Positions 10,039-33,075 of a stretch of 33,095 nucleotides of DNA are shown here, one piece after another. Every line of letters starts with the position of its first letter. Positions within the stretch are counted from its first letter, which is position 1. Made by a program: the position numbers and the translations under genes. The stretch comes from a virus, in IMG/VR virus record IMGVR_UViG_3300021354_000021, positions 1-33,095 of that record; one strand, 5' to 3'. The notes below the pieces were generated by a model. The model saw only the letters and a list, made by a program, of their open reading frames with translations. It searched no databases and was not told where the DNA came from.

Positions 10039-10110
10039 TTGCGAAGATTGGATTCGAACCAATGGTCTTATGGTTATGAGCCATACGAGTTACCGCTTCT
10101 CTACCTCGCA
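10039..10110 (-). tRNA. tRNA with CAT anticodon (Met elongator or Ile2)
   Basis: A 72-nt cloverleaf can be drawn by eye. Acceptor stem TGCGAGG with CTTCGCA (one G-U), U8-A9, D arm GAG...CTC with GG in the loop, anticodon stem TATGG/CCATA with loop CTCATAA, five-base variable loop, T arm ATTGG-TTCGAAT-CCAAT, discriminator A. CCA is not encoded. The anticodon stem lacks the three G-C pairs of initiators, so it is elongator Met or a lysidine-modified Ile2 tRNA. It lies inside the structural operon, between the major capsid and tail-tube-like genes, on their strand. Confidence 0.9.
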
Positions 10111-13975: not shown

Positions 13976-16861
13976 TTATTTTATTATCGCATGTAAACAA
14001 TAGTGAACACTAACCAACATAACCCCGTTCCCCGTTGCTCCGAGTGTTGCTGGTGCAGTTAAATTTATTGCAGCCTCTTTGAATATCGTATCATTATAAA
14101 GTATACCTCTTTGCATCGTTGCTGATGTTACTGCTGTAATTGAGTTGTCAAATTCAACTATATGAGTTCCGTCACCTGTAAATTCTAAAGATAACTTTCT
14201 GCGTGTGTAGGCCGCAGGAGTTAAGTCCCCGAATGAAATATCAATATAAGCCCTTAATATTTCAGTCCAATAGCCGTCAATTTTAGGGACAACTTGAATA
14301 GGTGTTGTGCGTAAATTTCGCAACTCAGATGAAGTTACTAATCGAGTTGCAAGGAATGGCATTTGAATATTATTTGCAACGAGCTCATCAGGTATTATAC
14401 TTGCAAAGTCTGTGCAATTTAAAAGTGTTTCTCCTCCTAAATTTGCTGTATTCCCTGACCCACCAAGTATAGATACTACATCGCCGTTGATAATATTATC
14501 TGACGAATTATTTATTACACCATTGCCATTTATTAAATTATTACTCCCAAAAGGAATAGCATCCATACCCGGTTGAAATGAATTTCCGTTTGATAAAATA
14601 ATTGGTGAATAAGAAGGTAATGCCTCGCCTGTTATTCCGTCCCCTGTTGGAAGAAAATCACCACTGCCACCGTTCATTCCTGTTTGACCATTTATAAATG
14701 CTGACTTAGTTCGCAATTTTAAAAATTGAACCGTTGTCAAATCATCAGAACTTGCATCGAAATCTACTTTATAAAGTCTGTAATATTGCTTGTCTATAAA
14801 ATAGTTTTTTCTGAAATCTAATTTCGATTGTTGGATTTCATTCAACCTCATTTTAAACTCCACAATTTTAGAATCAGGATCAACTATTTCAAGTAAGTTT
14901 TTTCTGTGATAAGTATTAAATAAATTTCCTAACGTATAAATCACGGCCTTGTATTGCACCTGAGTTGGCACACCAAAGTTTAAATCGAAAGTTGGATTTG
15001 ATACTGAATCAAGATGCCCAACATAAGGGAATGATGTGAACCCGGTTGGATATAGTCCTGTAATTCTTGAGTTAATTGTATACCAAGTACAACCTATTTT
15101 CCCACCATAATAAAGCAATCTTATAACTGATGCACTTGCTATGTGCTGATTGGCTGTGTCAAGAAAACTTATTTGTGACTGAACACGATTATTTCTTGTT
15201 TTATCTACCCAATCTACCAATGGTGTAGGGGCAAAGATTACTTCGGTTTTATATTCATCATTTACAAAATCATTTACGATTTTAAATTTACGAATACCAT
15301 ACGTGTCTATAAATTGTGACTGATGTTTATTATTTGTTTGGTCTTTATCTGGTTTATACGAGTAGTTATAAGACTTGTATTTCAATGCTCCCATTGGCAT
15401 TATCTTCACTTCTGAATTATAGTCTACATAATCTGTTAAATCAACAACAGAACCATTGAAAAAAGTATCGTAAGGCTCAATTATTAGCTTCTTTGGATTA
15501 TCTTCATCAGGTTGAATATAAAGATTGAACATCTTAAAAATTGATGTCAATAAATCTCTTTGCAAAACATCCGAAGGCAAACAATCTGATAATGTAATTG
15601 TCGAACCTTCATTGATTTTATAATCAGGGACAACGGTCAAATTTGAGCCCGTTAAAAATTTCACGGAACATTCAGTGGTGCCATGATTGGGACGTAATAT
15701 AAACGTTACCTCGTCACCGGCAATGAATGATTGCTGCCCAAACTGTTTCCCTGTGTCAATATTATAGGTTCCTGATGATGCCGGTAAAGTAAAATATCCA
15801 ATTGAAAGCATGTCAATAGCTGATCCGTTTTTCATCATCATCATATCTATATAATATGATGGAATAGCTGCCCCTGATGTTGTGTTTTTTATATCAAATT
15901 TAAATGTAGTATCAAAAGCATATACTCCTGTTTCAGGAATTATAAATTTATAAAGAGTAGTGTCATATCCTCCGAATGGTGGAGGTGGTACGGATTGTTT
16001 TTGTACCGTATCCATGAAAAAAGTAGTTGTTGCTAAATAACCTGTAATTGAAGTCCACCCGCTATCAGTAGAACGTCCTGCAATACATGATAGGTCTGTT
16101 AGGTGTGCATTTGTTTTAACGAACTCTTTACCAGCAAATGGAATTACTAATCTTTTAAATCTATCTGATGTGAAAAAATCCGAAGCATAATTATAACCAT
16201 ATTTCGTAAATATTGCATCGACAATAGTTTTTAAATAAATTTGAGGGAACCAATGTTCAACATAAAAATTTTGCTGGTCTGATACTAATCCTAAATCTAT
16301 CATCCCATACAAATACCCAACTCCAACAGGTGCAGTCCAACTGCCTGTGATATTTGTCCTATTCCATTCGTGGTTATATGTAGAAAGATTAATTTCATTT
16401 AATTTCCCTTCGCCTATATCCTGAAATAAATTTCCAACCTTACCAATTATCACTACATCATATTCGATTCTATTCTCATCAGTAATTCTTATGTCAGTCA
16501 ACTGCAAATATCCTTTCATCAATACTATCCCATTTCGATATAATGTGGATTCAGCTTTTAATGTTGGGTCAAAATCAGGATTAAAGTTTTGAAAAACGGA
16601 TAATGGATTAGTATCATCTCTCGAAAGTGAACGAGCAAGGTTAAATATTGATGAGAATATTTTATTATTGTTATCAGTCCCCGGAATCGTTATCGTTTTA
16701 GAATAGTCAGCCTTACGAGAACTAATATCCTCAACATCGCTAATTGATTTTGTGATAGGGATTGTTTCATCCTCTGCTAAATCAATATTGAAATCAACAT
16801 AAAAAGGAGTTGCAATGCCGTCATTGATTAACTGATGTATTTTAAGCTCGGTGTACTGCAT
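13976..16861 (-). CDS. Large tail tip / baseplate-like protein
   Basis: 961 residues. The start is ATG 16861 (MQYTELKIHQLINDGIATP); a longer in-frame start at 16930 lies inside the upstream gene and is rejected. Residues ~45-75 contain SSRKADYSKTITIPGT, a segment I recognise from tail proteins of Bacteroidota phages, followed by hub-like beta domains. Near 740-770 there is a Gly/Asn-rich linker, then a C-terminal beta domain that may bind the host. Lies before the tape measure gene. Tail hub or tip is inferred from place, size and composition. Confidence 0.65.
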   Translation of the reverse strand: MQYTELKIHQLINDGIATPFYVDFNIDLAEDETIPITKSISDVEDISSRKADYSKTITIPGTDNNNKIFSSIFNLARSLSRDDTNPLSVFQNFNPDFDPTLKAESTLYRNGIVLMKGYLQLTDIRITDENRIEYDVVIIGKVGNLFQDIGEGKLNEINLSTYNHEWNRTNITGSWTAPVGVGYLYGMIDLGLVSDQQNFYVEHWFPQIYLKTIVDAIFTKYGYNYASDFFTSDRFKRLVIPFAGKEFVKTNAHLTDLSCIAGRSTDSGWTSITGYLATTTFFMDTVQKQSVPPPPFGGYDTTLYKFIIPETGVYAFDTTFKFDIKNTTSGAAIPSYYIDMMMMKNGSAIDMLSIGYFTLPASSGTYNIDTGKQFGQQSFIAGDEVTFILRPNHGTTECSVKFLTGSNLTVVPDYKINEGSTITLSDCLPSDVLQRDLLTSIFKMFNLYIQPDEDNPKKLIIEPYDTFFNGSVVDLTDYVDYNSEVKIMPMGALKYKSYNYSYKPDKDQTNNKHQSQFIDTYGIRKFKIVNDFVNDEYKTEVIFAPTPLVDWVDKTRNNRVQSQISFLDTANQHIASASVIRLLYYGGKIGCTWYTINSRITGLYPTGFTSFPYVGHLDSVSNPTFDLNFGVPTQVQYKAVIYTLGNLFNTYHRKNLLEIVDPDSKIVEFKMRLNEIQQSKLDFRKNYFIDKQYYRLYKVDFDASSDDLTTVQFLKLRTKSAFINGQTGMNGGSGDFLPTGDGITGEALPSYSPIILSNGNSFQPGMDAIPFGSNNLINGNGVINNSSDNIINGDVVSILGGSGNTANLGGETLLNCTDFASIIPDELVANNIQMPFLATRLVTSSELRNLRTTPIQVVPKIDGYWTEILRAYIDISFGDLTPAAYTRRKLSLEFTGDGTHIVEFDNSITAVTSATMQRGILYNDTIFKEAAINLTAPATLGATGNGVMLVSVHYCLHAIIK

Positions 16862-28840: not shown

Positions 28841-29101
28841 ATGAAACAACTACAAATAAATTTTACTCGCAACAATTCTTATCACACCATCACGAACTTA
28901 GCAGATAAACAAACGAAGGTTTTAGAAGCAATTAAATCACTTGGGAAATGTTCGGCTTATGAAGTGTCAAAATATTTAGGATGGGAAATAAACCGGATCA
29001 CGGGCAGGATAAATGAACTCGAAAAACTTGGAAGGATTAAAAGCTGTTCGGTTAAGGTTGGATTGTACGGAAAGCCGGTTAAAGTGTGGGAGGGGCTATA
29101 A
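28841..29101 (+). CDS. Winged-helix DNA-binding protein
   Basis: 86 residues. Residues 20-75 form a winged helix (LGKCSAYEVSKYLGWEINRI, then a GLYGKPVKVWEG wing) typical of small phage regulators. The stop TAA at 29099-29101 lies in the first attC-like core of the right-hand cassette array, so the cassettes were inserted exactly behind this gene. Confidence 0.75.
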   Translation: MKQLQINFTRNNSYHTITNLADKQTKVLEAIKSLGKCSAYEVSKYLGWEINRITGRINELEKLGRIKSCSVKVGLYGKPVKVWEGL

Positions 29102-29231
29102 CGGTATGCAAGTTGGCGTTTGTTGCTGACTTTGAAACACGATATTATCAAACTTAGACAAATTTAGATATGAAAAACGAAATTTCAATAATCACTAAAC
29201 TCAGCAATAACGCTAACTTGCTGTTATCTGC
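29096..29231 (+). repeat. attC-like site A (left edge of right-hand array)
   Basis: Core CTATAAC (29096-29102) and GTTATCTGC (29223-29231). Arms GCAAGTTGGCGTTTGTTGCTGA (29108-29129, interrupted here only by listing) pair with 29201-29221 with one bulge and two mismatches. The right core is the start of cassette 1 and is the exact complement of its end core GCAGATAAC. Note the left-arm coordinates give the full sequence. Confidence 0.7.
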
Positions 29232-29409
29232 TGTTTTTGCGTTCTTCAAACAGAGAACGTGCAAACACGAGTTTAAAGGTAAAGAAATGCAACACAGAGA
29301 TGCAGAAGGTATAGTAAGGTGGCAATGTCATAAATGCAAAAAAGTGTTTGCTGCTGAATGTGGTTTGGATATTTTGAAAAACGGAAAATGTATAGGTGAA
29401 TGGTCTTAA
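29170..29409 (+). CDS. Cassette 1 protein: zinc-ribbon-like
   Basis: 79 residues. Metal-ligand candidates Cys31, His33, Cys53, Cys56, Cys64 in the CKH...WQCHKCKKVF arrangement, a compact zinc-binding domain also seen in phage-borne proteins. The N-terminal ~20 residues are encoded by the attC-like stem itself, which is unusual; a start after the recombination junction would leave only the metal-binding part. Function unknown. Confidence 0.6.
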   Translation: MKNEISIITKLSNNANLLLSAVFAFFKQRTCKHEFKGKEMQHRDAEGIVRWQCHKCKKVFAAECGLDILKNGKCIGEWS

Positions 29410-29419
29410 AGCAAAAATT

Positions 29420-29555
29420 GCAGATAACGGTCGGGTATTGCCGAAGGCAGGGATTTGAAAGACAAAAGTTTCAACCTTGCACAAATGCCTAATAGAAGTA
29501 CAAATGATTAATTAACCGAGAATGCCCTGCTTTTGGCAATACCTTGTTAGGTGCA
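29420..29555 (+). repeat. attC-like site B
   Basis: R''-like GCAGATAAC (29420-29428) is the perfect reverse complement of cassette 1's start (29223-29231). R'-like GTTAGGTGCA (29546-29555) starts cassette 2. Arms at 29434-29452 and 29525-29543 (19 bases each) pair with only two G-U-type differences. The intervening ~70 bases give a long site like the Vibrio VCR class. Confidence 0.8.
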
Positions 29556-29579
29556 GTGCTTCTCATAAACTTAAATAAA

Positions 29580-29900
29580 ATGAACATAACACTTAAAAGA
29601 AATTATGGCTACGAATTAATTTTTGAAGCCGAAAATGTAAAAATCACAGAGGATATTGAAGATAGAATATACTCTAAAACAGAAGATGGTAAAACAGATT
29701 TTAAAACGCCACCGAAACGAGATGTAAAAACAGATGTTTTAGAACAGTTTACTTCTGTTTTAGATAATATGATAAATTATCGTGAAGCCGATTTTGATAG
29801 TAGTGATTTAATTGAAAGGCTTTTTGAAAAATTACCTCAAGAAGTAGCCAATAATTTACTTGTCAAATTGAAACGTGATTATGAAACGGAGGTCGAATAG
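29580..29900 (+). CDS. Cassette 2 hypothetical protein
   Basis: 106 residues from ATG 29580; a longer start at 29544 would begin inside the attC core and is less likely. Acidic, helical, no recognised motif, beginning MNITLKRNYGYELIFEAENV. Sits wholly between sites B and C as a self-contained cassette. Function unknown. Confidence 0.65.
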   Translation: MNITLKRNYGYELIFEAENVKITEDIEDRIYSKTEDGKTDFKTPPKRDVKTDVLEQFTSVLDNMINYREADFDSSDLIERLFEKLPQEVANNLLVKLKRDYETEVE

Positions 29901-29903
29901 CAT

Positions 29904-30034
29904 TGCACCTAACGGTTTCGGGCTTGGCGAAGTGGCTGAACCGAATGTTTGATAGAAGCACAAAACTTAAAATAAAAAACGAATGATTGATAGAATTACT
30001 GAACAGCCATTTTGCCAAACCCGTGTTAGTGGCA
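29904..30034 (+). repeat. attC-like site C
   Basis: R''-like TGCACCTAAC (29904-29913) is the perfect reverse complement of cassette 2's start (29546-29555). R'-like GTTAGTGGCA (30025-30034) starts cassette 3. Arms 29919-29938 and 30004-30023 pair over 20 bases with three transition (G-U) differences. Confidence 0.8.
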
Positions 30035-30303
30035 GTTATTATTTGGTTAGATATTGTGGTGGCTCGTATGATGACTATTATAGTGCTGTGGTTTTTGTTA
30101 CCAATAAAAAAATAACTGCAACCAAATACTGCACCAAGTTTAATAAGATGCTGAAAAAATGGAAAGACCACTACAAGAAATTTGAAGCAGATAAATTTGG
30201 AATGAAATGGATAGCAGACGAACACGTTGAAAAGCACTTTGATAGATGGAATAGCCTTCAAAATATAACCAAATGTTATTACGAAGAAGTATCGTTCCGA
30301 TAA
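29983..30303 (+). CDS. Cassette 3 hypothetical protein
   Basis: 106 residues, basic and aromatic (YYLVRYCGG, KWKDHYKKFEADKF). No recognised family. The ATG at 29983 lies inside site C, so the first 14-15 residues come from the recombination site; the region after the junction starts around GSYYLVRY. A later start, for example a TTG at about residue 21, would put it inside the cassette proper. Stop TAA is just before the R''-like core at 30305. Confidence 0.55.
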   Translation: MIDRITEQPFCQTRVSGSYYLVRYCGGSYDDYYSAVVFVTNKKITATKYCTKFNKMLKKWKDHYKKFEADKFGMKWIADEHVEKHFDRWNSLQNITKCYYEEVSFR

Positions 30304-30304
30304 T

Positions 30305-30347
30305 TGCCACTAACTTGCGTATAGAAGCCACGACCTTTGTAAACCCT
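30305..30347 (+). repeat. Terminal half attC-like site of right array
   Basis: TGCCACTAAC (30305-30314) is the perfect reverse complement of cassette 3's start (30025-30034), so it is that cassette's R'' core. No paired right half is present. The next ~30 bases align with 853-890 at the end of the left array (CTAACTTGCG, GCCA.GA..TTTG). The next gene starts at 30356. Confidence 0.6.
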
Positions 30348-32736: not shown

Positions 32737-33075
32737 ATGGATAGATCAAAAAACAATTACAATGTAGTAAAGGAAATTTCAAAGATGCCGGATTATTATT
32801 CTACTCACGAAAATGGCGCATGGGCATCGGCATTCCTTTCAAGTTATCTTATGGATATTTGGGTGAAAATTGAAAAGAACCCAAACCCTGAACAACAGGT
32901 TAAATTTTTTGAACTAATGGAGGCGAAAAAGATTATTGTAAACGCATTATCTCACACGTTCAGGCTTGAAAATATGGAACGTATTCATGAAGCTGATCTA
33001 ATAAAACAACACCGGCAAATCGAAGATTTAAAGAAACAAATAAAAGTACTAAAAGACACAATTAATTTTGAATAA
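32737..33075 (+). CDS. Hypothetical protein with C-terminal coiled coil
   Basis: 112 residues. N-terminal region with a Trp-rich ENGAWASAFLSSYLMDIW (25-42) and a C-terminal coiled coil (about 83-110, IKQHRQIEDLKKQIKVLK). No family recognised. Starts 3 bases after the helicase stop; probable partner in the replication module. Confidence 0.65.
   Translation: MDRSKNNYNVVKEISKMPDYYSTHENGAWASAFLSSYLMDIWVKIEKNPNPEQQVKFFELMEAKKIIVNALSHTFRLENMERIHEADLIKQHRQIEDLKKQIKVLKDTINFE

Follow-up and report, generated by a model that had tools for sequence, protein, structure and literature searches.

Two probable integron-type cassette arrays with inverted gene orientation in a tailed phage of Bacteroidota

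Introduction

Small genes separated by long palindromes in the early region of a phage raise the question of whether they are mobile cassettes of the integron type and which enzyme would move them. Such a locus is present in IMG/VR record IMGVR_UViG_3300021354_000021, which was analyzed over its whole length of 33,095 bases (the window). The record encodes the large and small terminase subunits, a tape-measure-like protein, a RecE-like exonuclease, SSB and a DnaB-like helicase. A first-pass annotation had placed three integron-type cassettes between phage recombination and replication genes, a position that is borne out by the neighbouring genes. As described below, we consider it likely that the window carries two integron-type arrays of a tailed phage of Bacteroidota, which are moved by an IntI-related recombinase supplied in trans and in which the genes are inverted.

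Results

Two arrays of attC-like sites and cassettes

Sites were detected by a stem scan for TAAC...GTTA palindromes, with dinucleotide-shuffled windows as controls. Array 1 comprises the cassettes at 29094-30314 and lies between the recombination and the replication genes; array 2 (1-857) lies at the left end of the record. The features are the following:

3-248, + strand: ORF upstream of site E in array 2, open at the contig start, with box GCCACTAAC directly 3' of it; probably a further cassette
254-331, + strand: attC-like site E of array 2, boxes GCCACTAAC and GTTAGGTGT, score 11
356-856, + strand: cassette gene of array 2, 166 aa, HAD_SAK_2 domain (Pfam PF18143, E 1.5e-24)
849-873, + strand: end of array 2, terminal box GCACCTAAC (849-857), then attI-like flank TAACTTGCGGACATG
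29094-29231, + strand: attC-like site A, boxes GGCTATAAC (29094-29102) and GTTATCTGC (29223-29231), stem arms flanking an AT-rich loop, stem score 17.5
29170-29409, + strand: cassette 1 gene, ORF of 79 aa, small Cys-containing protein
29223-29231 and 29420-29428: box pair of cassette 1, GTTATCTGC and GCAGATAAC
29420-29554, + strand: attC-like site B, boxes GCAGATAAC and GTTAGGTGC, score 16.5
29546-29555 and 29904-29913: box pair of cassette 2, GTTAGGTGCA and TGCACCTAAC
29580-29900, + strand: cassette 2 gene, 106 aa, function not assigned, own start codon downstream of the box
29905-30033, + strand: attC-like site C, boxes GCACCTAAC and GTTAGTGGC, stem CGGGCTTGGCGAAGTGGC / GCCATTTTGCCAAACCCG, score 14
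29983-30303, + strand: cassette 3 gene, 106 aa, ATG inside site C, leader MIDRITEQPFCQTRV
30025-30034 and 30305-30314: box pair of cassette 3, GTTAGTGGCA and TGCCACTAAC
30306-30330, + strand: end of array 1, terminal box GCCACTAAC, then attI-like flank TAACTTGCGTATAG

The three perfect box pairs reported by the first-pass annotation, one per cassette, are present at the positions claimed. Sites with a score ≥ 14 occurred 0.05 times per shuffled window, compared to three times in the real window, and none of 150 shuffled windows contained chained neighbouring sites with complementary own ends. The box proposed as first boundary (29094-29102) is real, but it coincides in part with the stop codon of the phage gene before it (28841-29101). 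Similarly, the palindromes exist, but the description of genes flanked by stems has to be modified, as two of the three ORFs begin within the upstream palindrome (29170 and 29983). A further site had been suspected between 200 and 900, and a fourth site was indeed located at 254-331, followed by the HAD-fold cassette that ends with GCACCTAAC.

According to the ORF reading, the first approximately 20 residues of the cassette 1 protein are encoded by site A, which contains its ATG; a Pfam search with this protein gave no match above the cut-off. Relatives of the cassette 2 protein were found in five viral contigs (73-82% amino acid identity) and also in a 636-kb uncultured phage. Site B shares 97.7% identity with a counterpart at viral locus L057 and 90.5% with one at L099, and site C is 90.7% identical to a Flavobacterium phage site located between unrelated genes. 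The leader MIDRITEQPFCQTRV of cassette 3 was also found on unrelated phage methyltransferases, and the complete unit of attC and gene recurs in L116 and L091. A HAD_SAK_2 homologue forms the last cassette ahead of a recombinase gene (see below) in viral locus L272. The two HAD cassettes (356-856 of the window and 7703-8234 of L272) share only about 37% protein identity, whereas identity reaches 90-94% over the 50 nt at the start and the 32 nt at the end of the cassettes, as though these ends had been exchanged or constrained apart from the gene.

The closest relative of the window phage that was found, L296, lacks array 1; it was rejected as a clean empty site for this array because the flanking gene differs, too. 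An attC-like sequence is located in L296 3' of the homologue of the last gene of the window (32737-33075). This arrangement suggests a single permuted circle for the window, with array 2 at the same locus in both phages.

Box pairing within cassettes and distribution of the sites

The stem pattern of site C, TAACGNNNTCGGGCTTGGCGAAG, was found in at least 119 viral contig stretches and at least 116 genome stretches, the latter almost all from Bacteroidota. The viral loci were gathered by a single stem motif, and the genomes, mostly metagenome bins, were picked for carrying the site motif; of 35 long virus records, only 12 gave a match to one or the other of two terminase families. Among 228 viral intervals, 71% showed perfect pairing of the five variable bases in the two end boxes of a cassette, and among 77 genome intervals, 75% did. 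After shuffling of the ends, these values fell to 2.7 and 2.6%, respectively, and the pairing of a cassette's own ends is thus, as the first-pass annotation had held, not a matter of chance. It reaches position 14 apart from a near-fixed mismatch at position 11 (about 10 bp plus three more), a feature that sets these boxes apart from those of canonical integrons.

Stem-loops between small genes are common. The palindromes might accordingly be plain transcription terminators, a function in which the stems could work, or dispersed repeats, with incidental complementarity of the boxes. We regard this explanation as extremely improbable, since pairing within the own cassette was far above chance in hundreds of intervals, genes are read through the palindromes, the stems of the window have no T-run 3' of them, and exchange in phage isolates is cassette-precise (see below). 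When the whole window was searched against Rfam at gathering thresholds, tRNA alone matched. This tRNA gene (10039-10110, - strand) is located among the phage structural genes.

Exchange of cassettes in Flavobacterium phage isolates

Cassette variation among related phages, which had been proposed as a check, was found as gain, loss and relocation of whole cassettes with edges at boxes. It was observed in Flavobacterium phages from one Baltic station (PMC7077304), in which the early region of each of 14 sequenced isolates contains about 9-15 recognisable units. Phages mumin6-1 and mumin6-3 differ by one clean cassette of 506 bp with an edge ambiguity of 7 bp (TAACGTT). Phage tooticki6-1 lacks the same cassette and has the terminal part swapped between boxes; the comparison of tooticki with mumin showed 1206 bp replaced by 776 bp between boxes. 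Among the 14 isolates, the far units vary little, and the unit beside the shared terminal flank TAACTACAATATT varies by species. Another cassette, termed O (439 bp), occupies an internal position in lillamy9-1 and sniff9-1, is missing from sniff9-2 and snork6-1/6-2, and stands at the array end in lillamy9-7, with copies that are 100% identical over 444 bp and have their edges at ATAAC. Turnover at one end and precise relocation are as predicted by integron-type recombination.

Within the early region of filifjonk9-1, five methyltransferases are annotated, several of them within cassettes. For strain LMO6, a plating efficiency lower by 3-4 orders of magnitude was tied to the lack of a specific methyltransferase; integrons are not mentioned in the main text of that study (PMC7077304).

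A small difference was seen between mumin6-1 (L290) and mumin6-3 (L292), where one box differs by 3 nt (GTTATAGGC and GTTAACCGC, respectively). With this change, the box of mumin6-3 pairs with the cassette's own end box, which suggests conversion via a paired hairpin.

We also considered that the arrays are relics of an old acquisition that now vary only by homologous recombination between phages across common attC stretches. Such stretches of 120-135 bp could act as homology, the phage possesses exonuclease and SSB recombination genes, neither the window nor most attC-bearing virus records contain an integrase, and some breakpoints fall elsewhere than at boxes. However, the edges of cassette O and of the 506-bp cassette sit at TAAC boxes of 5-7 bp with differing adjoining stems, pairing is kept within each cassette while the boxes differ between cassettes, and the 3-nt difference in mumin6-3 brings about pairing with the cassette's own end. 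A relic array therefore appears unlikely.

A candidate recombinase and attI-like sites

The first-pass annotation had recognised no integrase in the window, in agreement with zero matches to TIGR02249 in the record, which may be incomplete. Above the curated cut-off, TIGR02249 matched none of 49 Bacteroidota genomes and none of 49 virus records, all of them site-bearing. Sub-threshold matches were obtained, which split near model positions 180-238. When one array-type recombinase was aligned to the IntI structure 2A3V, its linker comprised 16 aa compared to 58 aa, and the IntI1 segment was missing from every array-type recombinase aligned. Judged from these alignments, the recombinase adjacent to the arrays is related to IntI and lacks the IntI-specific domain (about 40 aa). 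Some of these proteins scored at or near the cut-off of the NCBIfam family 'site-specific tyrosine recombinase/integron integrase'. N-terminal extensions with repeated short tryptophan-containing motifs were noticed in several array-type recombinases (538-580 aa; L276, L281 and L287).

An array was present beside the recombinase in 8 of 25 regions that had not been chosen for an adjacent array, compared to 0 of 20 XerC/D regions of the same genomes. Half of the recombinase regions with ≥ 1 kb of 3' sequence showed no array, and in several other regions the contig stops within about 320 bp of the recombinase 3' end. At ten genome loci, an attI-like box is located 51-193 bp past the recombinase stop codon and pairs with the first cassette. 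In the direction from the array, its consensus reads TAAC-TNNNN-TATA. With a matrix built on these ten bacterial sites, all TAAC sites were scored, and the attI-like flanks of the window ranked in the top 0.4% (array 1) and the top 0.9% (array 2). The terminal flank of Muminvirus did not fit this bacterial matrix.

In three viral loci (L272, L274 and L275), the array ends with a last box and the recombinase gene follows about 50-60 nt further. The four recombinase-bearing virus records gave zero matches to the two terminase families tried, so that their status as phages rests on IMG/VR. In the Muminvirus records covered by the search, for whose relatives shuffling was observed, no recombinase was matched; the enzyme must therefore come from elsewhere. 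A role of the IntI-related recombinase in cassette movement is suggested by its position.

Alternatively, host XerC/XerD or another tyrosine recombinase might act on the phage arrays in place of the IntI-related enzyme, which is linked to them by position only and was not found in the records of isolated phages that were searched; Xer proteins, moreover, are universal in the hosts. Set against this are the lack of attC arrays within about 6 kb of the 20 XerC/D genes, compared to 8 of the 25 IntI-related regions, and the attI-like box, which adjoins the IntI-related enzyme in bacteria and its gene in the three viral loci. We rate the involvement of a Xer-type enzyme as rather unlikely.

A recombinase gene and an attC-like site were also found on a Chryseobacterium plasmid. 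On this plasmid (L343), a group II intron reverse transcriptase is encoded at 14765-16081 near the integron-like recombinase and the array, reminiscent of attC-targeting group IIC introns. The integrases of the Polaribacter phages Freya and Leef are related to the recombinase, and the stretches examined contained no supported array.

Inverted gene orientation in phage cassettes

Gene strand and stem motif had the same or the opposite orientation in a ratio of 87:2 in viral and 2:46 in genome units (p 2e-31). Independently of the motif, the gene-sense strand folded better at 142 of 165 decided viral sites, compared to 21 of 89 genome sites; for sites A and E of the window, the values were -36.2 (sense) versus -33.0 kcal/mol (antisense) and -28.0 versus -19.1, respectively. 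Two attCs of a class 1 integron (IntI1 plasmid record, L344), which were picked up by the same stem scan, folded like the sites of Bacteroidota chromosomes, i.e., better on the strand antisense to the gene, in contrast to the phage sites. Near-identical viral stretches (HSP ≥ 300 bp) ended 40 times at the box preceding the hairpin and seven times at the other one. Genome stretches ended five times at the downstream box and once at the other, which are few events; they were counted at HSP ≥ 230 and ≥ 300 bp, as the set at ≥ 150 bp was dominated by attC-only matches.

Breakpoints, gene strand and folding energies thus agree that phage cassettes are inverted relative to host and canonical ones. 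Based on these comparisons, the mobile unit of the phages is attC plus the following gene, a mirror of the canonical gene-attC unit. Four exceptions in orientation were found in all, among them the viral L019, which looks like a bacterial-type contig, and the genome locus L150, which looks like a phage-like contig. A first guess from the stem motif alone, that genome arrays converge on the recombinase, was ruled out by the gene directions; these show that arrays are co-directional and run away from the recombinase, and thereby revealed the inversion.

The proposal of integron-type cassettes is therefore upheld with respect to recombination, which is well supported by pairing and by exchange between sister phages, but the cassettes are not canonical, as the mobile unit is attC plus downstream gene. 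The further suggestion of a cassette route between hosts was weakened: the opposite gene orientation, which has few exceptions, casts doubt on a free exchange of cassettes between the arrays of phages and those of hosts.

Possible start codons inside attC

The combination of a frame open through the box, an in-frame ATG in attC and the lack of a gene-borne ATG within 45 nt was found in 49 viral units and one genome unit. About one quarter of the phage cassettes, including cassettes 1 and 3 of the window, appear to take their start codon from attC. The attC variants set the ATG in different phases (leaders MSNRITEQPFCQTRV..., MLIEELNSHFAKPVL... and MSNEEQNGFFAKPVL...), and related genes in L075 and L001 follow different attCs, both in frame. 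An in-frame attC ATG was reachable in 35 of 44 start-less units. A phase test of the ATG nearest to the box gave 18 of 39 in frame (p 0.09), which is not significant. The use of attC start codons is thus supported by the reading frames, but not proven.

Discussion

We propose that the mobile unit of these phages consists of an attC hairpin and then a gene, and that its terminal box is complementary to the one behind the hairpin. A tyrosine recombinase, presumably supplied in trans, would excise and re-insert such units through exchange at the TAAC/GTTA box that precedes the hairpin, with a folded single strand as the probable substrate, and new units would enter mainly at the putative terminal attI-like site. 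This enzyme is probably the relative of IntI that lacks the IntI-specific domain and is found next to the same sites in Bacteroidota genomes and in a few virus records. With attC placed 5' of the gene and often providing what may serve as its start codon, a gene would arrive translation-ready in the phage early operon. The cargo may serve anti-restriction and similar roles.

Array 1 is a CALIN, an integrase-less attC cluster of a type already reported in phages (PMC9892861): stem scores and chained complementarity place sites A, B and C within 29094-30033, i.e., at least two attCs within a few kb, and no integron integrase is nearby, with no TIGR02249 match in the perhaps incomplete record. 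CALINs were described in Polaribacter phage P12002L and Pseudoalteromonas phage PH101, and IntI1 recombined five of six phage CALIN sites in E. coli (Qi et al., 2023; PMC9892861). Phage cassettes without integrase, as pointed out by the first-pass annotation, are therefore not new by themselves. Those CALINs share with the present ones attC-bounded genes, some DNA methyltransferases and the lack of an integrase in the phage. Unlike here, the main text of that paper reports no systematic inversion, attC start codons, shuffling at the level of isolates, domain-less recombinase or Flavobacterium phages. The recombinase without IntI domain, the inverted orientation and the gain, loss and relocation of cassettes in isolates go beyond known CALINs, although an earlier description is possible: the inversion and the domain-less integrase had no prior description in the literature searched, which included few subscription papers and no preprints.

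With canonical integrons of class 1 or the Vibrio type, the system shares the array, attC hairpins with complementary boxes, a putative attI-like site and an adjacent IntI-related recombinase. It differs from them in that the recombinase lacks the IntI-specific domain and the phage genes lie in reverse orientation to attC. In Treponema-type integrons, intI is transcribed toward attI (PMC3607928), and the Bacteroidota chromosomal recombinase is likewise co-directional with the cassettes; Treponema, however, has intI, whereas the Bacteroidota recombinases remain below the curated IntI cut-off and miss the domain.

Taken more broadly, we lean towards the view that there are two mirror-image cassette pools, chromosomal gene-attC units and phage attC-gene units with a start codon and N-terminus encoded by the site, served by one integron-like system of domain-less recombinases common to Bacteroidota and their phages, and that phages swap anti-restriction genes with the recombinase acting in trans.

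Integron recombination has been described to require the IntI-specific domain, and it is still being asked how this domain and attC could have originated independently of one another (PMC4792948; PMC9668308). Arrays of attC-like sites beside domain-less relatives of IntI would make this question testable. In an analysis with IntegronFinder 2.0, a complete integron in Bacteroidetes proper was reported for Salinibacter only (PMC9024848); a Bacteroidota system would add a large overlooked group of integron hosts. If true, the inverted orientation with a start codon in the recombination site would be a new way to make a captured gene translatable at once. For the phages, the system would provide a mechanism for rapid exchange of methyltransferases, and the Flavobacterium isolates already show such exchange.
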